DNA of 64,000 bases from contig JUEB01000013.1 of assembly GCA_000802095.1 (NCBI GenBank), positions 186,001-250,000 of the forward strand, given 5' to 3'. The translations under genes and the position numbers were made by a program. The DNA comes from Peptococcaceae bacterium BICA1-7. GTDB taxonomy: Bacteria > Bacillota > Desulfotomaculia > Desulfotomaculales > Desulfocucumaceae. Each line of letters starts with the position of its first letter. Position 1 is the stretch's first letter. The notes under the pieces were generated by a model. The model did no database searches. It was not told the origin of the DNA and worked only from the letters and a program-made list of their open reading frames with translations. Below, piece by piece: positions 10,414 through 23,645 of this stretch.

Positions 10414-11193
10414 ATGACTGATGAACTTACCGAGCTTTTTGACCAACTATATCGCGATAACTATGTCAAGGTATTCCGGCTAGCCCTGGGACTCACCCAC
10501 AATCCCAATGACGCGGAAGATATAACCCAGGAAGTTTTTGTACGGGCTTTTCGCTCCTATCAAACCTTTCGTGAAGAAAGCTCTTTTTTTACATGGATAT
10601 ACCGGATTACCGTCAATGTGGCCAATGATTACATGAAACAAAGAAGTAAACTGCCCGTCTACGAAATTGCCGAAGATGCAGGTTGCTCTGTTGATGATTT
10701 GGCTGATCCCCATCCTGATTACAGCCCGGAAACCAAATTAATGATCAATGAAGTAATGCGGGTCTGCATGGCTGCTTTCACTGAATGTCTGCCCGTCAGC
10801 CAAAAAAAAGTTTTCTTCTTGGCAGTAGGATTAGGTCTGCCGCACAAAATTGTGGCCGAAATATTGGATTGTTCGGTCAGTTCGGTGAAATCGTCGCTGC
10901 ACCGGGCTAAAAACAGATTGATTGGCTACATGGAAAGCAGGTGCCAATTAGTTAAAGAATCAAATTCCTGCCGTTGTGAGCAATGGATTAAACGTGGCAT
11001 TTCGCGAGGATGGATAACTAAAGAGTGTATAGCCAACCCTCTGCCCAAAATTACCATTCCGGCCGGGGTAAAAATATACATGTGGGATTTGCGGGATATA
11101 TACAAAAATGTTTACCTGGCAGACAACGATGAAGTATTGGCAAAGTTTTTTAAAGAAGGCTTTGCCCAAAAGAAATGGGCTACTTTTTCTTAA
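10414..11193 (+). CDS. ECF-type RNA polymerase sigma factor with cysteine-bearing C-terminal extension
   Basis: 259-residue extracytoplasmic-function sigma factor. Region 2 spans about residues 10-80 (NPNDAEDITQEVFVRAF and FFTWIYRITVNVANDY). Region 4 spans about 120-175, with the helix-turn-helix LPHKIVAEILDCSVSSVKSS. Beyond it is an extension of about 80 residues containing CRCEQWIKRG and a further Cys in ITKECIA, then a segment not obviously related to sigma factors. Typical ECF factors stop near 180 residues. No anti-sigma gene is adjacent, so control may be built into the tail (inference). ATG 10414 follows GAGGCG. The downstream neighbour is a Cys-rich DUF3795 gene 64 bases away, perhaps in the same transcript. 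Confidence 0.88.
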   Translation: MTDELTELFDQLYRDNYVKVFRLALGLTHNPNDAEDITQEVFVRAFRSYQTFREESSFFTWIYRITVNVANDYMKQRSKLPVYEIAEDAGCSVDDLADPHPDYSPETKLMINEVMRVCMAAFTECLPVSQKKVFFLAVGLGLPHKIVAEILDCSVSSVKSSLHRAKNRLIGYMESRCQLVKESNSCRCEQWIKRGISRGWITKECIANPLPKITIPAGVKIYMWDLRDIYKNVYLADNDEVLAKFFKEGFAQKKWATFS

Positions 11194-11705: not shown

Positions 11706-11743
11706 AAACAACTCAACTTTCCAGACCGAAAGTTGAGTTGTTT
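11706..11743. terminator. Bidirectional terminator between convergent genes
   Basis: A 16-bp perfect stem (11706-11721 with 11728-11743, core ACAACTCAACTTTC) and a 6-base loop, with A/T-rich flanks on both sides. It separates the rightward DUF3795 gene from the leftward GT2-GH130 gene. Confidence 0.75.
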
Positions 11744-11777: not shown

Positions 11778-14700
11778 TTAAATATCTGTACCATAATTGT
11801 TCTTCCCTCCAACCTCCTGCCTGACGGATTCCGGTATCAGATCGCCGACCCGGCCGGTGGCAAGGCATATATGGGTATCTGCAGCGCCATAATAAACCAG
11901 TATTTGGTCATCGGCGTCCAGCACTTCCTTGTCATTAGCCGGCACCGCGCCGCAGGTGAAAACAACATTGGGCACCCAGCTCTCCCCTTCTTTTCCTATT
12001 TCATACCCGGTTTCGGGAGAGAGGACCGGATTGGGAGAACGGTAGATCAGGCGCTCCGGATTGTCGAGGTCGATCAGTACAACGCCCAGACGATACACCC
12101 TGTTGCGGTCGACACCGTGGTAGATAAGCAGCCAGCCGTATTTGGTCTTGATGGGCTGGGAGCCCGCTCCTATTTTTAAGGAGTCCCACATCCATCCCGA
12201 ACGCGGACCCAGGATGATGGAGTGCTTTTTTTTGGGCGCCGGAAACTCCAGCTTATCCAGGTGCACCATCCATATGCTTGGCTCTATCCGGTGGTAAATA
12301 ATATATTTCCCATTAATTTTTTCTGGAAACAGTATGGCGTCCTTGTCCCAGATGTCCTGGAAAGCAAGGCCCTTTCTTTCCCATTTGTCAAATCTTTTGT
12401 TTAACAGGTCCTCCAGCCCTATGGCAGCGGCCGAAACCTGTGCAATGACACCGTCGTAGGCAGTGTAAAGCATATATATCCTGTTGTCGAATATGGCTAC
12501 CCTCGGGTCTTCGACACCTTTTATTTCCGTCCTGTCCTGTGGCACAAACACAGGCTCCGGAAGTCTCTCCAGCACTTTGTAGCCGTCCGTCACGGCCAGC
12601 CCGATCCGCGACACATCATCATCTCCGTGCGCCCTGTAGAGCAGGTAGACCCTGTCTTTTACCCGGAAGGCAGCCGTGTTTAAGACGTACTTGCTTTCCC
12701 ACGGGTGCTCCTTTATTGGACTCAGCATAGGATTGCCCGCATACCTGACGAGGGGCTTTGCCGGCGGGTAATCCTGAGACTCCTGCACCACTACGGTCAC
12801 ATCTTTGGGCCTTATTCCCAAAAGGACATCAATAAGGTTTTCGCTGGCCCTGCCCTCACCTATGAGCTGGATCACCGTTTTCATGATTTCTCCGGGGTCG
12901 TAGCCCAGTTCTTCATATATTTCCTCAAGGAAATCGTGGTTGAACCACTTCTCCTCGACATGGCTGGAAAGCGAGGTAGGAATACCCTTTCCGCCCTTGT
13001 AGCTATAGCTGGCCCAACTCCAGACCGAGCACGGCAGGAATGTGCCGTCGGCAAGAACCTGGCTCAGGCCGTAGCCATTACACATAATGTTTATCAGCCG
13101 GGCCTTTTCGTTTTGGCCGACATCCGCCAGCCTCTGTGACAGCGCCCGAAACTGGCTGATTAGCGCACGGTGATGGAAGTTTTCAAATAAATTGTGTACG
13201 GAAAAGGCAATGGTTTCGTAACGCCCAACCAGGGAGTTGAGTATCTTGCCACCCAGGTTTTTCCTCTCTTTGGCGTAGGTTCTCCAGAGGATGTCGTAAT
13301 TTTCGGCCATCATAATATGCCTGGCCACAAAGAGGCAGAAGCGCAGCCTCGGATAGTCCCCTCCCACACCTTTATTCAGAGGCCCGACCACAATCCTGGA
13401 GGCGATCTTGTTGAAGTCGGAGACATTTCCCAGCTTCACCGTGCCGTTAAGTACCTTTGCACCCAATATGATGGGCTTGATCTCCACCTCACCCATTCCA
13501 TCCGGCCCCAAATTATCCATCATCCACAAAAGTGACCTGTCCCCGTACTTCCGGGTCTCAACCAGGTTGGCCAGGCTGGCGGCATCCCTGACGTCCATTT
13601 TTTTAATGAGATCCCTGGGATTCTTGCATCCCGCAGGGATCATCACATTGAGCGGCGGAAAACGGAGCAACATCTCCCTTATGACCTCATCTTTTATGGA
13701 AAAAATCATGGGAGAGTGGAACAGCCGGAAAATGCCGTCTATTACCTGCCCAATTCCCTCTTCGGTGTATAAGTCCCCCGGCAGCAGCTCTTCCATAGTT
13801 TTTTCCAGTTCGCTCATGAATTCTTTCATACACACGATTATCGTTTTGTAATCAGCGTTTTCCGACGTCCCCAGCCCGTCGCGGAGAAAGCTGCTAAACG
13901 CTTCCTGATAGCGGGACTGGAGGCGGTGGAACATTTCTTCCGACGAAACAACCTTGCCTTTACGCCCCTCTATTTTTTTGGGCAGCACGGTGGGTATGCC
14001 TGGTATAAATTCCAGGTAGTGGGCCGGTACGAGGGGCGGCTTCGTTTCTAGATCCTTTTGCTCCCACAACAGCATAAAGTGATCCCTCAATCTTAGAAAG
14101 TCTTTTCTTTGTTCTTCTTTGGCTAAAGACACCTCACTTGAGACAATAAAGTCGGTATCAACGCTTTTAATGCCTTCCAATTGTTTTTCCACGGACTGAA
14201 TGTTCCCAATGAAGCTGGACACCCTCCCGTTGAAGGCAAAAGTGAGTTCGTCCAGGAGATCGTCGCTGCACACACCAGTGACAAACCAGTACTTAAACAG
14301 TATGCGATATACTATATCGGCCCATATTTTTCCTTCTATTATTAGCTCTTTGTCCGTTACCGGCCGGGTGTCTTTGCTGCCTTCGTAAAGGTGGTCGTAG
14401 TAGGAGGTGTCACAAAGTATTTTGTACTGGCTGTAACTGTATCTGAACTGGGGGTCCCGGATAGACGGGGTAGGCTTATAGGGCTTATCATTGGTCCTGC
14501 CGCCATAAATATCGGGCGTCCTGATGATTAACCTGCTGCCGGTCCAGTAATCCTCATCCCTCTTTATACATTCAAACAATGACCTGGCGTTTTCTTTAAA
14601 AATATAGTTTAGTTTTTCAATAGAGATTTCCCCCAGCTTAGTGCCCAGCTCCACCTCGCAAATCTTTTTGTTCCAGCGCATAGCCCGGCTAACCAGCCAG

Positions 14701-15362
14701 GGGTCGATTCCGAACCCCCACGTGGTGTCAGTCCAGAATTTTATATCGGCGCAAAAGTCCTCCACGGTGTCGTGGGATATGGCATAAACACCGCTCAAAG
14801 TCCCCTTGACGTTGTACCCGTAAAATACCTCCAGCAGTTGGGCCGTGAACAGGCTTCCCAAAAGGTTCTCAAAATAGTGCCTATGGAAAGATGTCACCAC
14901 CAAATCATATTCTTTTCTGATGGGCTCTATAAGGCGCCTGATCCAGTCGGGCTGCAGCCCTCTGCCTTCCTCCCGCACCAGGTCGGCCGCAAATATAACC
15001 GCATCGGCCTCCAGCATATTGGCTATCTCCAATATCGCCCTTATACTGGCCCCTCTGCCATTGCTCCCGGGCTTCATTAAAAATTCCAGGTGGGGGGCTT
15101 TTAAATCCAGACGCCTGATGGATGCCAGCGTTTCTGTTCCTACGGGGTCCCCCACGCAGATGATCAGAGACTTGCTCATTTCCTGAAGGCCGGCCAGCCC
15201 TTCATCCAACACTTTCAGCACTTCGGGCAGGATATCCTTTTCATTATAGAAAGGGATGCCGATTACCACATTGACTTCATTAAACAACTTTGCCTTTTCA
15301 ATATACTCATTGATGCTCTCATTAAAAAGTGCCTCTAAATCATTCAACCGCTCGACGCCCAT
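11778..15362 (-). CDS. Fusion of GT2-like glycosyltransferase and GH130 mannoside phosphorylase-like domain
   Basis: 1194-residue cytoplasmic protein (no signal peptide). Residues about 25-330 resemble a GT-A fold transferase, with VVIGIPFYNEKD, the nucleotide-sugar region PGSNGRGASIRA, and AADL in the DXD position. The layout recalls mannosylglycerate or glucosylglycerate-type synthases. A helical middle of about 500 residues is unrecognised. Residues 866-1180 form a GH130 five-blade propeller: RYAGNPMLSP at its start, the catalytic-acid segment GVEDPRV (Asp 952), and IGAGSQPIKTKYGWLLIYHGV. GH130 enzymes phosphorolyse beta-mannosides to mannose 1-phosphate. ATG 15362 follows GGAGG at 8 bases. 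It lies at the end of a leftward run with another GH130, next to a GDP-mannose synthesis operon. Transferase substrate and product are unknown. Confidence 0.85.
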   Translation of the reverse strand: MGVERLNDLEALFNESINEYIEKAKLFNEVNVVIGIPFYNEKDILPEVLKVLDEGLAGLQEMSKSLIICVGDPVGTETLASIRRLDLKAPHLEFLMKPGSNGRGASIRAILEIANMLEADAVIFAADLVREEGRGLQPDWIRRLIEPIRKEYDLVVTSFHRHYFENLLGSLFTAQLLEVFYGYNVKGTLSGVYAISHDTVEDFCADIKFWTDTTWGFGIDPWLVSRAMRWNKKICEVELGTKLGEISIEKLNYIFKENARSLFECIKRDEDYWTGSRLIIRTPDIYGGRTNDKPYKPTPSIRDPQFRYSYSQYKILCDTSYYDHLYEGSKDTRPVTDKELIIEGKIWADIVYRILFKYWFVTGVCSDDLLDELTFAFNGRVSSFIGNIQSVEKQLEGIKSVDTDFIVSSEVSLAKEEQRKDFLRLRDHFMLLWEQKDLETKPPLVPAHYLEFIPGIPTVLPKKIEGRKGKVVSSEEMFHRLQSRYQEAFSSFLRDGLGTSENADYKTIIVCMKEFMSELEKTMEELLPGDLYTEEGIGQVIDGIFRLFHSPMIFSIKDEVIREMLLRFPPLNVMIPAGCKNPRDLIKKMDVRDAASLANLVETRKYGDRSLLWMMDNLGPDGMGEVEIKPIILGAKVLNGTVKLGNVSDFNKIASRIVVGPLNKGVGGDYPRLRFCLFVARHIMMAENYDILWRTYAKERKNLGGKILNSLVGRYETIAFSVHNLFENFHHRALISQFRALSQRLADVGQNEKARLINIMCNGYGLSQVLADGTFLPCSVWSWASYSYKGGKGIPTSLSSHVEEKWFNHDFLEEIYEELGYDPGEIMKTVIQLIGEGRASENLIDVLLGIRPKDVTVVVQESQDYPPAKPLVRYAGNPMLSPIKEHPWESKYVLNTAAFRVKDRVYLLYRAHGDDDVSRIGLAVTDGYKVLERLPEPVFVPQDRTEIKGVEDPRVAIFDNRIYMLYTAYDGVIAQVSAAAIGLEDLLNKRFDKWERKGLAFQDIWDKDAILFPEKINGKYIIYHRIEPSIWMVHLDKLEFPAPKKKHSIILGPRSGWMWDSLKIGAGSQPIKTKYGWLLIYHGVDRNRVYRLGVVLIDLDNPERLIYRSPNPVLSPETGYEIGKEGESWVPNVVFTCGAVPANDKEVLDADDQILVYYGAADTHICLATGRVGDLIPESVRQEVGGKNNYGTDI

Positions 15363-15486
15363 GAATAAAACCTCCGTTAAAAATTTATTTTACGCCAGAA
15401 GCCTTATTCTTGCGCTCCCCGTTGCCGGACCACCCGTTTTTGAGCAGTGTCAGCCAAATAATCAATATCCCGATTTATGTTTGCTT

Positions 15487-17757
15487 TCACAGGGCCGTTT
15501 TTCGGTCCAGTATTTTAAATATGTTAACATCTTTCAGGCACGTTATGGCCTGGGCAAAGGCCAACACCGATTCTGCGCCGCTGTTAGCGTTGCTGCCAGT
15601 CTCGGTGAGACCGTCCAGAGGATAGTCTTCCTTCAGGTTATACACCGGCACTCCCAGTCTGTTTTTGCCAAAAAACCAGCTGAAGGCCTTATTCGCCAGG
15701 TCGCGGTAGTTTTTGTCATTGGTCTGCCGCAGGGCCTCGCAGTATGCTTCCACCAGGCAGCCAATCTCTACGGGCTGCTGATCAAAAAAAGCCCTCTCCT
15801 CCCCTAAAACAAGCCAGCCCTTGTTGCCCACCAGGTCGAAGTAAGTACCATTATACTGTGTTCTGGTCAGAAAGTTTAAAGTCACCAATGCCGTTTCCAG
15901 ATAAACTTTTTCCTTAAGAATACTGTGCGCCATCATCAGAGCAAAGGGCAGCTTGGCATTGGAATAGGTAACAGAGGGCTCAAACCAGTCCCAGTGAGGC
16001 CTTTTATTATCATTGTAGAGTCTGACCAGGTAGTCTGCCCCTGCCCTGAGCAGCTCGCCGGCCTTCGGCGCCTCAGTGAATTTTTTAAGGTATTCGGATA
16101 ATCCACAAATGCCGTAGGCCACCGCCTTGGGATAAGTGGACAGCGGTATCCCCGCTTGCCGGCCGTCTATGGCCCGGTCGAATACTTCCTTGGACAGCGT
16201 AGCCACAGAGGGATCCGTGCTCAGAGCGGCGGCGCTGCCAAGGCCCATCAATACGCGGCCAAAGGTGTCATCGCCACCGTCCTCGTCCAAAATCCGCCGG
16301 TCATAGCCCACAAAATTATGGAACCGCCCATCCTTTCTCTGTACATATAGTATGAAGGCCATGTATTTTTTGGCCAGCTGATAATAACCGGGCTTCTTGT
16401 CAAAGCGGGCCACCTTCATAATTATCCCCAGCGCCCTCCCGACATCATCAGCGGAATAGCCGTGCTTCAGGTCGGGAATGCCGTGCTTGGTGTGCTGGAA
16501 GATGCCGGTATCATCAGTCATGCGCTCAAACATACTATACAGATTGCGTCTTCTCAGATAATCCCGGCTGCTTTTGTAGACCACGCCTATTCTCTGCAGC
16601 TTTTTCATCGAGAATTCTTTGTAAACCTCTTTGAACAAGCCGTGGTAAAGCTCGGCCACCCTGGACCAGATCATCGATCGCCCGTATTCGTATGCGGCCA
16701 GGCGCGTCTTCCGCATGTCCTCCTGATGGGAAAAAACCCCGCTCAGGGTCCTGGCCAGAGCTTTTGGGTTATTGAAGGGCACCAGGTGACCACGGCCTTC
16801 GGCAAGCACTTCCTGGGCGTAGTGATAGGGGGTGGAGACCACCACCTTGCCCAGTGCCACAGCATAGGCCAGCGTCCCGCTGGTTATCTGCTCCTGAGAA
16901 TGATAGGGGGTTACATACACGTCGGAGGCGCTTATGTAATTATACAGCTCTTCGTTCGTCGCGAATTTGTCGATAAACAGCACATTATCTTCCAGTTTAT
17001 TTTCCTGAGTCAATTTCTGGAGGCTCTCCCGGTACCTTTCCCCGTGAATCTTAGCCACTTCCGGGTGGGTTTTACCAAGTATGACGTACAGCAAATCGGG
17101 ATGGTTGCGGACCACTTCGGGAAGGGCTTCCAGAACCAGCTCAAACCCTTTCCCGGGGCTCAGCAGGCCAAAAGAAAGGAGCACAAGGCGACCGGCCAGG
17201 CCCAGTTCCTTTTTGAAAGGCTCCGTCTCGACAAAAGGAAGGTCGGGCACACCGTGCGGTATCATCACTATTTTTTCAAGGGGGACGTAGTATACTTCAT
17301 TAAGTATTTCGATAGCTTTGTTGCTCATTACTACTACCCGCTGGGAGCGTTGGATAACCTCGATGAGGGAGGTATAATAACCAAGGGTGGGCTGTTGAAG
17401 CACAGTATGGATGGTTGTTACCACCGGTTTTTTCAGCTTTTCCAGCAGCCTTGCAATATGGCGTCCCTCAGGGCCGCCAAACAGGCCGAATTCGTGCTGG
17501 AGGTTGACCACCTGCAGGTCAGCTGCATTAATGTCCCCGGCGGCTCTGGTGTAATCGGATACTTTATTTTTGTCAAAGAAAAAATTGACTTCCTGGGGAT
17601 ATTCACCCGAGGTAAGTCCACCTACTGCTACAATTTTACCGGCTGATGCATAGAAATTCTCATACGAAGTGAATAAATTATGCGTAAAAGTGGCGATTCC
17701 GCACTCTTTTGGGATATATGAACTAATAAAACAAGGATTTATTCCTTTTTGACGCAA
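15487..17757 (-). CDS. GT4 glycosyltransferase fused to an (alpha/alpha)6-toroid glycosidase-like domain
   Basis: 756 residues. The N-terminal half (about 1-375) is a GT-B transferase: ECGIATFTHNL, the HEFGLFGG region, and nucleotide-sugar contacts in FGLLSPGKGFELVLEAL and ITSGTLAYAVALGKVV. The C-terminal half (about 385-745) is helical with repeated aromatic-Gly motifs such as GYSADDVGRALG, DEDGGDDTFGRVLMG and SNANSGAESVLAFAQA. This pattern is typical of six-hairpin toroid enzymes. The TTG at 17757 follows GGAGGTGA with suitable spacing. No signal peptide is seen. It is flanked by GH130 genes on both sides. The toroid half could hydrolyse, epimerise or simply bind the glycan; I cannot assign a family. 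Confidence 0.82.
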   Translation of the reverse strand: MRQKGINPCFISSYIPKECGIATFTHNLFTSYENFYASAGKIVAVGGLTSGEYPQEVNFFFDKNKVSDYTRAAGDINAADLQVVNLQHEFGLFGGPEGRHIARLLEKLKKPVVTTIHTVLQQPTLGYYTSLIEVIQRSQRVVVMSNKAIEILNEVYYVPLEKIVMIPHGVPDLPFVETEPFKKELGLAGRLVLLSFGLLSPGKGFELVLEALPEVVRNHPDLLYVILGKTHPEVAKIHGERYRESLQKLTQENKLEDNVLFIDKFATNEELYNYISASDVYVTPYHSQEQITSGTLAYAVALGKVVVSTPYHYAQEVLAEGRGHLVPFNNPKALARTLSGVFSHQEDMRKTRLAAYEYGRSMIWSRVAELYHGLFKEVYKEFSMKKLQRIGVVYKSSRDYLRRRNLYSMFERMTDDTGIFQHTKHGIPDLKHGYSADDVGRALGIIMKVARFDKKPGYYQLAKKYMAFILYVQRKDGRFHNFVGYDRRILDEDGGDDTFGRVLMGLGSAAALSTDPSVATLSKEVFDRAIDGRQAGIPLSTYPKAVAYGICGLSEYLKKFTEAPKAGELLRAGADYLVRLYNDNKRPHWDWFEPSVTYSNAKLPFALMMAHSILKEKVYLETALVTLNFLTRTQYNGTYFDLVGNKGWLVLGEERAFFDQQPVEIGCLVEAYCEALRQTNDKNYRDLANKAFSWFFGKNRLGVPVYNLKEDYPLDGLTETGSNANSGAESVLAFAQAITCLKDVNIFKILDRKTAL

Positions 17758-17923: not shown

Positions 17924-18871
17924 CTACATGGGACTCCTTGAGCTTTCCAGGCACATGGCAGCAAGATCACTGATGTTGGCGGCGCCGACGCACATAACTT
18001 TGTCCGCGCCTCCCCAGTAAATCTTTACCGTGCCGTCCTCCTCGGGGACAGCCCCGCAGGTAAAGACCACGTTGTGTACGTAACCCGTAATCTCCCAGGG
18101 ATCTTCAGGCTGGAGAATCCACTCGTCGGCAACACCCAGTATTTTCGACGGATCATGCAGGTCGTGGAGAATCACTCCCAGCCGGTATACAGCCCCGTCC
18201 ATCGTGCGAAAGACACCGTGATAGATATTCAGCCAACCCTTTTCAGTCTTGAAAGGTGTGGCGCCGGGGCCTATCTTCATTTCATCCCAGTGGTAGCCGG
18301 CCGGTTTAACAAGGACTTTTGAGTCGCCCCAGTGAACCAGGTCGGGTGAATAGGAAATCCACATAGACCAGGGGCTGATTTCGGAATGGGGGCGGTCCAG
18401 CCGGACGTAACGCCCGCCAAACCTCTGCGGGAAGAGCACCACGTTGCGCAGGTCCGCCTGGGTGATCATTGAAATCCGCTCGACGGATAAAAAGTCTCTG
18501 GTCCTGGCCAGGCCGATTCTCACCCCGTGCCTGGAATAGGCGCTGTAGGTGATCAGAAAATCCCCGTCAATCTGGCAGATGCGCGGATCCTCGATGCCAT
18601 ACTCCTCATACTCGCCCCAAACACCGTCCCTCAGCGGGGCCATGAAAGGCTCGGGCCGTACTTTAAATGAATAGCCGTCTGCACTTTCAGCCAGACCCAA
18701 AATGGAGCGGCCATTGAAGAGGTGTGAGCGAAAAACCATAAAATAGCGGCCATCTGTTTTCACCACACCCGCGTTGTGAACGGTGGCCACAGGGTAGGGC
18801 ACATCGTCCCTGGTCAATATCGGATTCCCGGCGTACCTCTGGACAACCGGCCCCATCTTTTTAGGGCTCAA
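17924..18871 (-). CDS. GH130 beta-mannoside phosphorylase homologue
   Basis: 315-residue single-domain GH130 protein, typical length. It shows RYAGNPILTR at the N-terminus, the catalytic-acid loop GIEDPRI, a phosphate/substrate segment KIGPGATPFKTEKGW followed by NIYHGV, and VVFTCGAVPE near the end. Characterised relatives reversibly phosphorolyse beta-1,4- or beta-1,2-mannosides, releasing mannose 1-phosphate. I prefer the TTG at 18871, placed 8 bases after GGGAGG and overlapping the upstream gene's TGA by 4 bases, which suggests translational coupling; TTG 18877 and ATG 18856 are alternatives. Linkage specificity is unknown. Confidence 0.88.
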   Translation of the reverse strand: MSPKKMGPVVQRYAGNPILTRDDVPYPVATVHNAGVVKTDGRYFMVFRSHLFNGRSILGLAESADGYSFKVRPEPFMAPLRDGVWGEYEEYGIEDPRICQIDGDFLITYSAYSRHGVRIGLARTRDFLSVERISMITQADLRNVVLFPQRFGGRYVRLDRPHSEISPWSMWISYSPDLVHWGDSKVLVKPAGYHWDEMKIGPGATPFKTEKGWLNIYHGVFRTMDGAVYRLGVILHDLHDPSKILGVADEWILQPEDPWEITGYVHNVVFTCGAVPEEDGTVKIYWGGADKVMCVGAANISDLAAMCLESSRSPM

Positions 18872-19908
18872 AAGCAAAACCTCCCTGTATTTGTACTTTT
18901 TTTACCGATAATTTTATGATAAACGCCCAAATAATCCTCCACCATGCGCTCTCTTGAAAATCTCTTCTCCACTATCTTCCTGCACTTCCGGCGCGACACC
19001 GCATCCAGGCTGCGCACCGCCTCTGCTGCGGAACAAACGTCGCCCACCAGGAAACCGTTGGCCCCGTTTTCTATTATCTCCGGCATGGAGCCCCTGTTGA
19101 AGGCCACCACCGGAGTTCCGCAGGCGCCAGCCTCCACAACAGAGAGCCCGAAGGGCTCACTAAAATTTATTGGGTGAAGCAACGCCCTCGCTCCTCCAAG
19201 CAGCTCATTTCTAAGCTCCGGCCCCGCGACACCCGCATACCTGACCCTGACACCGTCGAGGTGGGGCTCGACAGCCGATCTGTAATAATCACTGTCCTGG
19301 ATAACACCCGCCAGAATCAGCCTCATACCGGTCTGCCTGGCAATTTGGACAGCCTCGGCAGCCCCCTTGTCATGGTGAATGCGGCCGAAAAAAAGCAGAT
19401 AGTCCCCTGGTGTTTCCTGAAAAGTAAAATTCTCAAGGTCGATCCCGTGGTAGACAGTGCCTATATAGCTGAGCTCCGGCGATCGGTCAGCGTTGCTTAT
19501 AGATACGTAGTAAGTCTTTTGGTTGTATTTTCTGTATACAGGAAGTATTTTGGGTGATGAAAACCCATGGATAGTGGTAAGTACCGGGGTGTCCGTCAGA
19601 CCTGAATAAGTGAGGGGCAGAAAATCAAAATTATTATGGATTAAATCGAAATCCCCAGCCCTTTCAAACAGCTCGGATATGTGTAGACACTCCCAGACCT
19701 TTGGGTCAAGGGTCTTGTCCTCCTCGTAGGGCCTCGGCGCGATAGCGTGGAGCTTCGCCTGTGTTACGGAGTCTGCCGTGGCGAAAAGAGTCACATCAAT
19801 CCCTCTGGCGGCCAGTCCCTCGGTCAGCAGTGAAACCACCCGCTCCCAGGGACCGTACCCCAGCGGGGGAGTCCTCCAGGCTATGGGAGAAAGCATGGCT
19901 ATCTTCAT
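18868..19908 (-). CDS. GT4-family glycosyltransferase
   Basis: 346-residue GT-B retaining transferase. It begins MKIAMLSPIAWRTPPLGYGPWE, a glycine-rich acceptor loop seen in this group. It then shows VYHGID, FGRIHHDKGAAEA and the donor-binding EPFGLSVVEAGACGTPVVA with the conserved E-X7-E glutamates. The ATG at 19908 follows GGAGG. It is first in the leftward mannose-glycan operon and is coupled to the GH130 gene by a 4-base overlap. A GDP-mannose donor is suggested by the divergent GDP-mannose genes only (inference). Confidence 0.88.
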   Translation of the reverse strand: MKIAMLSPIAWRTPPLGYGPWERVVSLLTEGLAARGIDVTLFATADSVTQAKLHAIAPRPYEEDKTLDPKVWECLHISELFERAGDFDLIHNNFDFLPLTYSGLTDTPVLTTIHGFSSPKILPVYRKYNQKTYYVSISNADRSPELSYIGTVYHGIDLENFTFQETPGDYLLFFGRIHHDKGAAEAVQIARQTGMRLILAGVIQDSDYYRSAVEPHLDGVRVRYAGVAGPELRNELLGGARALLHPINFSEPFGLSVVEAGACGTPVVAFNRGSMPEIIENGANGFLVGDVCSAAEAVRSLDAVSRRKCRKIVEKRFSRERMVEDYLGVYHKIIGKKSTNTGRFCF

Positions 19909-19965
19909 CTAAAACCTCCAGCCAATTTTTATTATTTTTGCTATTTATATGTACTTCTATTAATT

Positions 19966-19997
19966 ACAGGAATTTCCTGTATTATATATGTTATAAT
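19966..19997 (+). promoter_or_regulatory. Perfect palindrome and -10 box between divergent mannose operons
   Basis: ACAGGAATTTCCTGT at 19966-19980 is a perfect 15-base palindrome around a central T. A TATAAT box lies at 19992-19997, so the palindrome covers the spacer/-35 area of a rightward promoter that would drive the guanylyltransferase gene. No good -35 is visible, which fits an activator- or repressor-controlled promoter. Confidence 0.5.
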
Positions 19998-20042
19998 ATA
20001 ATTTTATGGAATATTTATTTATTATTGGAAGGGGGGAGTACT

Positions 20043-21116
20043 GTGCCTTTTGCAGTTATTATGGCTGGCGGTAGAGGAGAAAGGTTCTGGCCGCGGAGCA
20101 GAATGGCAAAGCCAAAGCAATTTTTAAACCTCATCGGCGAGAAAACAATGCTGCAGCTGACCGTAGAAAGGATCGAAGGACTGGTCGGAATATCAGACAC
20201 CTATATCGTGACCGGTTCGGATTTTAAAGACACCATTCTGGAACAAATCCCCAAACTGCCCGAAGAAAACATCATTATCGAGCCGTTTGGCCGGGACACG
20301 GCCGCAGCCATAGGACTGGCCGCCCTGGTCCTGGGGCAAAAAAAACCCGGGGAGGTCATGATTGTTTTGCCGGCCGACCATTATATCGGCAACATGCGCA
20401 AATTTCACGAAGTATTAAGAAGCGCAGTGGCCACCGCAGGCCTGGGAGACAAAATGGTCACCCTGGGCATCACTCCCCACAGTCCTGAAACCGGGTACGG
20501 CTACATTCACCTTGGCGAGTTGACTAACACCTTTTCCAGAACACCTGTCTACCGGGCCGTCCGCTTCCTGGAAAAGCCCAACTACGCCCGCGCTCTGGAG
20601 TTCCTCTCCAGCGGGGACTACCTCTGGAACAGCGGAATGTTTGTCTGGAGGATCGACACCATTCTTGAAATGATAAAAAAACACATTCCCTCGCTTGCAG
20701 AGAGGCTTAAGGAGATCGAAGACACCCTCGGAACTGACCAGTACCAAAAAACGGTTAAAAAAGTCTACTCGGAACTACCGAAGGTCTCCATAGATTACGG
20801 CATAATGGAAAGGGCCGACAACGTTTTAGTCATTCCCTGCGATTTCGGGTGAGACGACATCGGGAGCTGGACCGCTCTTGAGAGATTCGTTGAAAAGGAT
20901 GAACTCGGCAACGTCCTTCACGGGGAGGGAGTCTTGCTGGATACGGAAAACACCTATGTTGTCACCAATAAAAAGACCGTGGCGCTGTTAGGAGTTAAAG
21001 ACCTGATCGTTGTAAACGACAATGACAGCCTGCTAATCTGCCACAAAAGCCGGGCCCAGGAGATAAAAAAGGTTGTGCAGGCTTTGAGTGCTAAAGGGTT
21101 TAACAGTGTTCTATAA
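20043..21116 (+). pseudogene. manC: Mannose-1-phosphate guanylyltransferase interrupted by in-frame UGA
   Basis: The frame from GTG 20043 (GGGGGAG upstream) gives the nucleotidyltransferase signature MAGGRGERFWPRSR, a PKQF motif, VLPADHYI and a normal fold up to codon 269. Codon 270 (20850-20852) is TGA where the family has Trp in DFGWxDxGSW. The same frame continues without further defects for 87 sense codons (DDIGSWTALERF through a normal C-terminus) to TAA at 21116, giving 357 residues if read through. The enzyme makes GDP-mannose from mannose 1-phosphate and GTP. Either this is a fresh nonsense mutation or sequencing error (TGG to TGA), or UGA is read through. The truncated product would lose conserved metal and sugar-binding residues. 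Confidence 0.85.
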
Positions 21117-21155: not shown

Positions 21156-22538
21156 TTGACGTTAATTAGCCCGCAAATTTTCCGCCAGTATGATATTCGC
21201 GGCGTTGCTGAAAAGGACTTGTCCAATGAAACCGTGGAACTGCTTGGAAAGGCTTTCGGTACTTATGTTAAGGAATCCGGCTCCCGCAAAGTTTTAGTGG
21301 GCAGAGACAACAGGCTCAGCTCCGACCGGCTGCGGGACGCCATTATCAGAGGTCTTCTGTCCGCTGGCTGTGACGTCACCGATATAGGGCTGGTTGTCAC
21401 ACCAATGCTTTACTACTCCAGGGTTCACTTCGGCATAGACGGGGGAATTATGATCACCGGCAGCCACAACCCACCGGATGAAAACGGCTTCAAGCTCGCT
21501 TTGGGAAGCGGGACCATTTACGGTGATGAGATTCAAAAGCTAAAAGACATTATGATTTCAGGGAATTTTACTTCAGGCTCGGGTCGGCTGGAAAAACTGG
21601 ACGTGGTACCCCCCTACCTTGCTATGCTCAAAGAAAAAATCCAACTGGGCCCGAGAAAGTTAAAAGTTGCAGTGGACTGCGGCAACGGCACGGCCTCGCT
21701 GTTTGCCCTGCAAATCCTGGAGGCGTGGGGCTGCGAGGTAATACCGCTGTACTGCGAATCAGACGGCTCTTTCCCGAACCACCAGCCGGACCCGGTCAAA
21801 ACGGCAAACCTGGCAGAGCTAAGAAAAGCCGTTTTAGAAAAGGGTGCCGATGCTGGCCTCGCCTTTGACGGCGACGCTGACAGGATCGGCGTGGTGAACG
21901 AGTCGGGCGGAATTATCTGGGGAGATTTGCTGATGTGCCTGTACTGGCGGGAGATCATGGCCAATCACCCCGGGGCCCAGGCAATCATTGAGGTTAAGTG
22001 CTCTCAGTCGCTGGTGGACGAGGTTGTCCGGCTGGGGGGCAGGCCATTCTTCTACAAAACGGGTCACTCTCTGATCAAGGCCAAGATGAAGGAAATCGGG
22101 GCAATCTTCACCGGAGAGATGTCCGGGCACATGTTCTTCGCAGACGAATTCTACGGCTTTGACGACGCCTTTTACGCAGCCGGCCGCCTGCTGAGGATTC
22201 TCTTACGCTCCAAAGAGCCCCTCTCTAAAATGCTGGCTGAAGTACCCAAATATTACTCTACGGCTGAAACCAGGGTCCCCTGCCCTGACCAGGACAAGTT
22301 TACGGTGGTAAAGGGGCTGGTGGAGCTATTCAAGCGCCAATTCGAGGTCATCGACGTTGACGGGGTGCGGGTGCTCTTCGGTGACGGCTGGGGCCTGGTC
22401 CGGGCGTCAAACACCCAGCCTGTTCTGGTAGCCCGCTGCGAGGCCAAGACCCCTGAAGGGCTGCAGAGGATCTGCGACACCATGCAGAAAGCCCTGTCCG
22501 GGTTTTCTGAAGTTGAAAAATTCAATTGGGAGTACTAG
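21156..22538 (+). CDS. manB: Phosphomannomutase/phosphoglucomutase
   Basis: 460-residue alpha-D-phosphohexomutase interconverting sugar 6- and 1-phosphates, full length. The N-terminal FRQYDIRG, the phosphoserine loop MITGSHNPP, the metal loop DGDADRIG and sugar-binding EMSGH are all present, as is the C-terminal phosphate loop around RASNTQPVL. The start is a TTG following AAAGGAGACAGCAA. It lies 39 bases after the guanylyltransferase and 27 before the isomerase, in one operon converting fructose 6-phosphate to GDP-mannose. Confidence 0.93.
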   Translation: MTLISPQIFRQYDIRGVAEKDLSNETVELLGKAFGTYVKESGSRKVLVGRDNRLSSDRLRDAIIRGLLSAGCDVTDIGLVVTPMLYYSRVHFGIDGGIMITGSHNPPDENGFKLALGSGTIYGDEIQKLKDIMISGNFTSGSGRLEKLDVVPPYLAMLKEKIQLGPRKLKVAVDCGNGTASLFALQILEAWGCEVIPLYCESDGSFPNHQPDPVKTANLAELRKAVLEKGADAGLAFDGDADRIGVVNESGGIIWGDLLMCLYWREIMANHPGAQAIIEVKCSQSLVDEVVRLGGRPFFYKTGHSLIKAKMKEIGAIFTGEMSGHMFFADEFYGFDDAFYAAGRLLRILLRSKEPLSKMLAEVPKYYSTAETRVPCPDQDKFTVVKGLVELFKRQFEVIDVDGVRVLFGDGWGLVRASNTQPVLVARCEAKTPEGLQRICDTMQKALSGFSEVEKFNWEY

Positions 22539-22565: not shown

Positions 22566-23645
22566 ATGATTGACCGGGAAAAAATACTTAACGACGCGGA
22601 GTACATGTACCAGGCCGATACTAAGGAGATGTTTCAGTCCCTGGCCGCGCTTGCGGGCCAGTGCAATACAGCCTGCTGGGATCTTACCGGAAACGTTGAC
22701 CTGCCAGCTGTGGAGGCAATATCCAACGTAGTGGTGACCGGGCTGGGAGGATCGGCAATCGGGGGAGACCTGTTGCGGATCTATTGCCTTGATAAATGCC
22801 AGGTGCCTGTGGTGGTAAACAGAAATTACGTCATGCCTGAATTTGTCGGTAAGGATACCCTGGTCTTTGCTGTAAGCTATTCCGGCAACACCGAGGAAAC
22901 CATCAGCGCCTATCTGGACGCCAGGAAAAGGGGCGCCACCATTATAGCCATCACCACCGGCGGCAAACTGAAGGAAATGGCTGATGGTGACGGAGCAACA
23001 GTTATACCTGTGCCTGGAGGTATATCACCCCGATCTGCTTCCGGTTTTCTTTTTATACCCACCCTTCGCATCATGGAAAAGCTGGGTTTTTTGTCCGGCA
23101 TTGCCGAAGAGGTTGAGAAGCTGGTGGACCACCTGAAAAAACTGCACGAAAATCTTAAGCCGGAAATACCGGTGGAAAAAAATTCAGCCAAACAGATGGC
23201 CTTGAAACTTTATAACCGTATACCGGTCATCTGGGGGTCCAGCGGCACCACGGAGGTGGTTGCCCAGAGGTGGAAGGGACAGATAAACGAAAATGCAAAG
23301 TCGCCTGCCTACTGGAACGTTTTCCCGGAGCTAAACCATAATGAACTGGTGGGCTTTAGATTTCCGGAAGCCCTGCTAAAGCAGCTGCACATTGTAATTT
23401 TAAGGGATGACCAGGACCACCCAAGGGTGCAAAAACGCATTGAAATATCCAAGAACGTCATAAGCAAGACCGTTGCCGGCATCACCGATGTCCGGGCCAG
23501 CGGAGGAGATCTCCTGGCCCGGACGTACTCCCTTATTTACAGCGGAGATTACACAAGTGTGTACCTGGCCTTTCTATATGGTGTAGACCCCGGCCCGGTG
23601 GAAGCAATTGATCACCTCAAAAATGAACTGGCAAAGGATTATTAA
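22566..23645 (+). CDS. Bifunctional phosphoglucose/phosphomannose isomerase
   Basis: 359-residue SIS-domain isomerase of the archaeal/bacterial bifunctional PGI/PMI type. SIS motifs are GLGGSAIGGDLLR and VSYSGNTEETISAY; the second half has SSGTTEVVAQRWKGQINENAK and ELNHNELVGF carrying likely catalytic Glu and His. ATG 22566 follows GGGAGG. It interconverts fructose, glucose and mannose 6-phosphates and thus feeds the mutase and guanylyltransferase upstream in the operon. Confidence 0.9.
   Translation: MIDREKILNDAEYMYQADTKEMFQSLAALAGQCNTACWDLTGNVDLPAVEAISNVVVTGLGGSAIGGDLLRIYCLDKCQVPVVVNRNYVMPEFVGKDTLVFAVSYSGNTEETISAYLDARKRGATIIAITTGGKLKEMADGDGATVIPVPGGISPRSASGFLFIPTLRIMEKLGFLSGIAEEVEKLVDHLKKLHENLKPEIPVEKNSAKQMALKLYNRIPVIWGSSGTTEVVAQRWKGQINENAKSPAYWNVFPELNHNELVGFRFPEALLKQLHIVILRDDQDHPRVQKRIEISKNVISKTVAGITDVRASGGDLLARTYSLIYSGDYTSVYLAFLYGVDPGPVEAIDHLKNELAKDY

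Follow-up and report, generated by a model that had tools for sequence, protein, structure and literature searches.

The window, the whole 64,000-nucleotide stretch of DNA that was analysed, carries on its minus strand a gene for a 1194-residue protein in which three parts follow one another in a single open frame. The initial annotation had described it as a GT-A-like part joined to a GH130 phosphorylase in one frame at 11778–15362, and its coordinates, strand and length are confirmed. The features of the gene and its surroundings are as follows.

11778..15362, minus strand: three-part fusion gene, 1194 aa; a single open frame, with homologues fused in the same order
15371..15375, minus strand: Shine-Dalgarno GGAGG, seen in the sequence 8 bases upstream of the ATG at 15362
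14073..15362, minus strand: residues 1–430, GT78/GT81-type glycosyltransferase fold plus helical C-terminal part, with an altered active site (stand-alone homologues; mannosylglycerate synthase match)
14979..14990, minus strand: altered DxD, AADL, residues 125–128; first Asp lost, second (D127) kept
12768..14072, minus strand: residues 431–865, middle domain without recognised relatives; no family match, seen only inside the fusion
11781..12767, minus strand: residues 866–1194, GH130 phosphorylase domain plus short tail (PF04041; nearest solved structures 7fip and 9fj8)
12501..12512, minus strand: EDPR, GH130 catalytic-acid motif, residues 951–954
11706..11743, minus strand: terminator-like hairpin with a 16-pair stem, directly after the stop codon
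15487..17757, minus strand: GT4x, GT4 glycosyltransferase with a C-terminal domain of ~380 aa (Pfam; neighbourhoods); the most constant partner
17924..18877, minus strand: GH130s, stand-alone GH130, 317 aa, 38% identical to the fused GH130
18868..19908, minus strand: GT4b glycosyltransferase (Pfam), conserved in many loci
19761..20852, plus strand: mannose-1-phosphate guanylyltransferase (GMP), family match
21156..22538, plus strand: phosphomannomutase/phosphoglucomutase (PMM), family match
22566..23645, plus strand: bifunctional phosphoglucose/phosphomannose isomerase, family match

The fusion gene is the last of four minus-strand genes, which run in the order GT4b, GH130s, GT4x and fusion, and the genes for GDP-mannose supply diverge from this operon. 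For the guanylyltransferase, similarity begins at about residue 97, and its real start therefore probably lies later than 19761. No hydrophobic segment long enough to span a membrane was found in the fusion protein (best 19-residue mean 1.33). A gene for an ECF-type sigma factor (10414–11193, plus strand), with a C-terminal extension of ~80–90 residues past region 4, is convergent with the end of the operon.

Were the join an assembly error, as the initial annotation had considered, homologues should consistently be encoded as two separate genes; they are consistently fused. Among 60 near genomes, the fusion stands in one frame in five relatives (identities of 96, 92, 84, 82 and 76%), residues 1–865 match frames of ~1170–1275 aa across the phylum, down to ~27–30% identity, and the fusion is encoded at 34 loci in genome contigs, some of them cut by contig ends. 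With the middle domain alone as query, the fusion was detected in 48 of 398 genomes sampled from one phylum, a count that leaves out the marginal match in G142 (E 1e-3). Shorter frames sit at contig ends (G267 and G295) or begin at base 1–3 of a contig. The exception is locus L135 (G484:C15), where residues 2–552 and 553–865 lie in two adjacent frames, through either a pseudogene or a sequencing error; convincing split-gene homologues were not found among the sampled genomes. Since independent genomes carry the fusion as one frame of ~1170–1275 aa, an assembly error or a recent join was rejected. In the GH130 tree the fused domains form one group apart from stand-alone GH130 proteins (support 93/91, just below the tree's starred level, with L028_10602 counted as a fused GH130), so that a single origin is the simplest reading. 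The three parts diverge in a correlated way (r 0.82–0.89, as shared descent alone would also give), with mean divergences of 0.62 for the GT part, 0.53 for the middle domain and 0.30 for GH130. The fusion is real and old, and common to many anaerobic Firmicutes.

The GH130 domain is recognised by Pfam PF04041 with an E-value of 5e-53 (180.6 bits, the cut-off being 26). Its motif GVEDPRV is intact, as annotated initially, and E951, D952 and R954 within it are invariant in the 48 fusions. Nine active-site positions (N895, R910, E951, D952, K1007, R1025, K1063, H1082 and D1162) are likewise the same in 48 of 48. The catalytic acid D952 and the −1 subsite residues N895 and D1162 align with Asp98, Asn28 and Asp287 of Teth514_1789, as expected of a GH130 enzyme. 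The basic residues R1025, K1063 and H1082 have identical counterparts in the aligned phosphorylase 7fip, a pattern of phosphorylases rather than hydrolases, and they presumably bind phosphate. K1007 aligns with a Lys common to Teth514_1788 and Teth514_1789 that has been tied to β-1,2 specificity (PMC4599007); judged by this alignment, the fused GH130 would be of the β-1,2 type.

The N-terminal part gives a fainter signal in Pfam, where the GT-A-like family PF00535 (GT2) matches at E 8e-4, below the curated cut-off. Stand-alone proteins of ~430 aa from other Firmicutes, however, align nearly end to end with residues 1–430 (tblastn E ~1e-22; alignment), and these in turn match glucosyl-3-phosphoglycerate synthase (GpgS; E 3e-16) and, more faintly, the GT domain of mannosylglycerate synthase. 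Mannosylglycerate synthase is also the best fold match of residues 31–430 in a predicted model of modest confidence (Z 16.6, rmsd 7.1–7.5, 314–325 residues aligned). Residues 330–430 align with the C-terminal helical part of the stand-alone GT78/81-like enzymes and of mannosylglycerate synthase. Residues 1–430 are thus a whole GT78/GT81-type glycosyltransferase fold, helical tail included, and the stretch of about 500 unknown residues initially placed at 330–865 shrinks to ~431–865, which is indeed unrecognised.

The active site of this fold departs from that of its relatives, contrary to the initial reading of intact GT motifs. GpgS and MgS have an ion network at the donor sugar, made up of the first DxD Asp, a Lys and an acid, and contact the metal through the second DxD Asp and a His (PMC2581804). 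The window protein has A125, R103 and D220 at the former positions and D127 without a metal His at the latter, its DxD reading A125-A126-D127. Of the 48 fusions left after dereplication, one retains the first DxD Asp and one (L104) the metal His, against 39 for the ion-pair acid D220, 43 for D127 and 45 for the ribose-side E41; all 48 have R or K at position 103. Within the 430 GT columns, the first-Asp position ranks 237th in conservation and E41 and R103 rank 19th. In 17 of the 48 homologues a Glu stands at the first-Asp position and could take over the role of the Asp. The DxD and His are intact in all three stand-alone homologues aligned. Since the GT78/GT81 signature of both DxD Asp residues and the metal-binding His is incomplete in the window protein, we describe its N-terminal part as a GT78/81-derived fold and do not count it as a functional member of those families. 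The GT site has decayed further in L102 and L107. L102 (8335–11985, minus strand) is a paralogue, the second fusion copy in genome G157, in which the GT site is strongly decayed (GFPLYRN, SSYL) and GH130 is intact.

Judged by these residue patterns, nucleotide-sugar binding probably survives in the GT fold, with part of the usual machinery lost, and catalysis by an unusual site may persist. The invariant GH130 site, the altered GT site, the GT part's greatest divergence and the decayed GT beside an intact GH130 in L102 all point to the fused GH130 as the likely catalytic core of the protein.

For the middle domain, the profile search that the initial annotation had proposed bears out its statement that this region resembles nothing recognised: there was no credible match to residues 431–865 in Pfam, NCBIfam or PDB sequences. 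The best PDB-sequence match, a capsid protein at E 0.078 over 44 residues, looks like chance. A whole-protein model from a shallow alignment reached a mean pLDDT of 64.8 and a pTM of 0.43, and the structure comparison list (VIA-align) scarcely probes residues 431–865. With this domain as query in the 398 genomes of the phylum, it occurred only within the fusion and never without GH130. Its end, residues 751–850, is the best conserved stretch outside GH130. The fusion family thereby offers a conserved domain of 435 residues that resembles no recognised family.

The surroundings of the gene recur with it. In the majority of the loci examined, though not in some distant members, GT4x, PMM and GMP are found no more than a few kb from the fusion, and the C-terminal domain of GT4x is present in 43 of 48 fusion genomes as against 51 of 350 others (Fisher p 9e-26, relatedness ignored). 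This domain (15487–16629, minus strand, ~380 aa) has no Pfam match and is a separate gene of ~340–370 aa in many other Firmicutes; one separate copy, L145, weakly resembles GH88/GH127-type α/α folds. The stand-alone GH130 of the operon (17924–18877) reads L-R-N where the fused GH130 has D-K1007-D and thus lacks the Lys tied to β-1,2 specificity; the substrates of the two may not be the same. Where related genomes lack the fusion, GT4b, GH130s, GMP/PMM and GT4x accompany a GH130 protein of ~450–500 aa, whose place the fusion seems to have taken. Examples are L138:9830–11326 and L139:7599–9065, GH130 proteins of ~490–500 aa with an unrecognised N-terminal part, which lie between GMP/PMM and GT4x.

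The fusion, the homologies, the residue patterns and the neighbourhood are computed directly, and from them we infer substrate, binding role and reaction direction. No weight as evidence of homology is given to an hhalign E-value that is inflated by the presence of both rows of alignment A4 in alignment A2. We tentatively favour, with somewhat less than even confidence, an intracellular GH130 β-1,2-type mannoside phosphorylase that acts on a mannose glycan and carries, besides a unique domain of 435 residues, a module derived from a GT that probably binds a nucleotide sugar. The chemistry would be done at the GH130 site, converting β-1,2-type mannosides and phosphate reversibly to α-mannose 1-phosphate. 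With the donor-positioning Asp and the metal His lost and the nucleotide-sugar pocket kept, the GT fold most likely serves to bind GDP-mannose or an acceptor's mannosyl end and would not reach a normal transfer rate. The middle domain, which has a conserved stretch rich in Trp and Tyr, would present the glycan to the GH130 site. Together with the neighbouring GT4 enzymes and the GDP-mannose genes, the protein would extend, trim or recycle an intracellular mannose glycan, mannose 1-phosphate going back to the pool. As this compound connects phosphomannomutase, guanylyltransferase and glycan, the enzyme could put mannose back or take it out at no cost in nucleotides. A binding role for one half, suggested initially for GH130, is plausible, but by the evidence it falls to the GT half and not to GH130. 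The family would then show a glycosyltransferase site seemingly shifting from catalysis to binding. Against this explanation, the nucleotide-side GT residues are among the best conserved of their domain, which would also fit an active but unusual transferase, and the Glu of 17 homologues could stand in for the first DxD Asp.

The main rival, a bifunctional enzyme resembling cyclic glucan synthase with a GT half that still catalyses, is possible though doubtful. It draws on an order of GT, middle domain and phosphorylase that is shared with cyclic glucan synthase, where the phosphorylase end serves to adjust the length of the chain (PMC10834661), on the adjoining GDP-mannose supply genes, on the retained nucleotide-contact residues, and on the fact that the three parts have one origin and diverge in a correlated way. 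The loss of the first DxD Asp and metal His in nearly all homologues and the further decay in L102 and L107 count against it, as does the lack of a membrane segment such as cyclic glucan synthases have in their N-terminal part (PMC10834661). We consider unlikely a bolder proposal, a widespread bacterial β-mannan (mannogen-like) synthase-phosphorylase, in which an unusual, perhaps metal-independent GT78-type site of this soluble chain would prime and GH130 extend or trim an undescribed intracellular mannose reserve or solute of anaerobic Firmicutes. It is improbable that two independent enzymes are joined for co-expression only, their halves not cooperating: pathway genes cluster anyway and a separate ~450–500 aa GH130 protein occupies the same place in related genomes, but the sampled genomes show no fission, one origin and a middle domain that is never alone, and physical cooperation is therefore favoured. 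The initial suggestion of a switch between making and breaking one same bond is very hard to sustain even though both halves are mannose-related by homology, since the GT half groups with the retaining GT78/GT81 enzymes, which give α products (family knowledge; PMC2581804), whereas GH130 phosphorolysis is inverting and acts on β-mannosides (family knowledge; PMC4599007), and the altered GT site, which may have changed stereochemistry, does not restore it.

We compared the fusion with known systems. Teth514_1789, a β-1,2-mannobiose phosphorylase, and Teth514_1788, a 1,2-β-oligomannan phosphorylase (PDB 7fip, 9fj8; PMC4264767), share the GH130 motifs, and their genes also adjoin GDP-mannose supply and a GT4; unlike the fusion, they are single-domain proteins of ~300 aa without the GT fold or middle domain. 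Cyclic glucan synthase likewise unites transferase, middle domain and phosphorylase in a single chain (PMC10834661), an analogy only, as it has other families in all three places and is membrane-bound and glucose-specific. The Leishmania mannosyltransferase/phosphorylases (GT108; PMC8950772) have a five-bladed propeller related to GH130 and serve intracellular β-1,2-mannan turnover, which we infer for the fusion; they are single-domain, with both activities, GDP-mannose transfer and phosphorolysis, in the propeller and neither a GT78-like nor a middle domain. The C-terminal domain of the fusion matches the GH130 profile. No paper on a fused GT78/GT81-GH130 architecture was found among the literature naming GT78 or GT81 with GH130; the fusion, built from known families and one unrecognised domain, is apparently undescribed in the literature searched. 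Should the proposed function hold, the fusion would be for mannose what glucan synthases with a built-in phosphorylase controlling chain length are for glucose, and would point to intracellular β-mannan metabolism in many syntrophic and related Firmicutes.

With mannosylglycerate synthase (GT78) and glucosyl-3-phosphoglycerate synthase (GT81), the fusion shares the fold and length of residues 1–430, the ribose Glu, the basic residue and the second DxD Asp; it differs from them in lacking the first DxD Asp and the metal His and in being joined to two further domains. At locus L132 (7413–8699 and 12832–14097), a stand-alone 428-aa GT78/81-like synthase is clustered with genes for a LacI-type regulator and a sugar ABC transporter and with a glucosylglycerate-hydrolase-like gene, and is possibly a further type of glucosylglycerate-type synthase.
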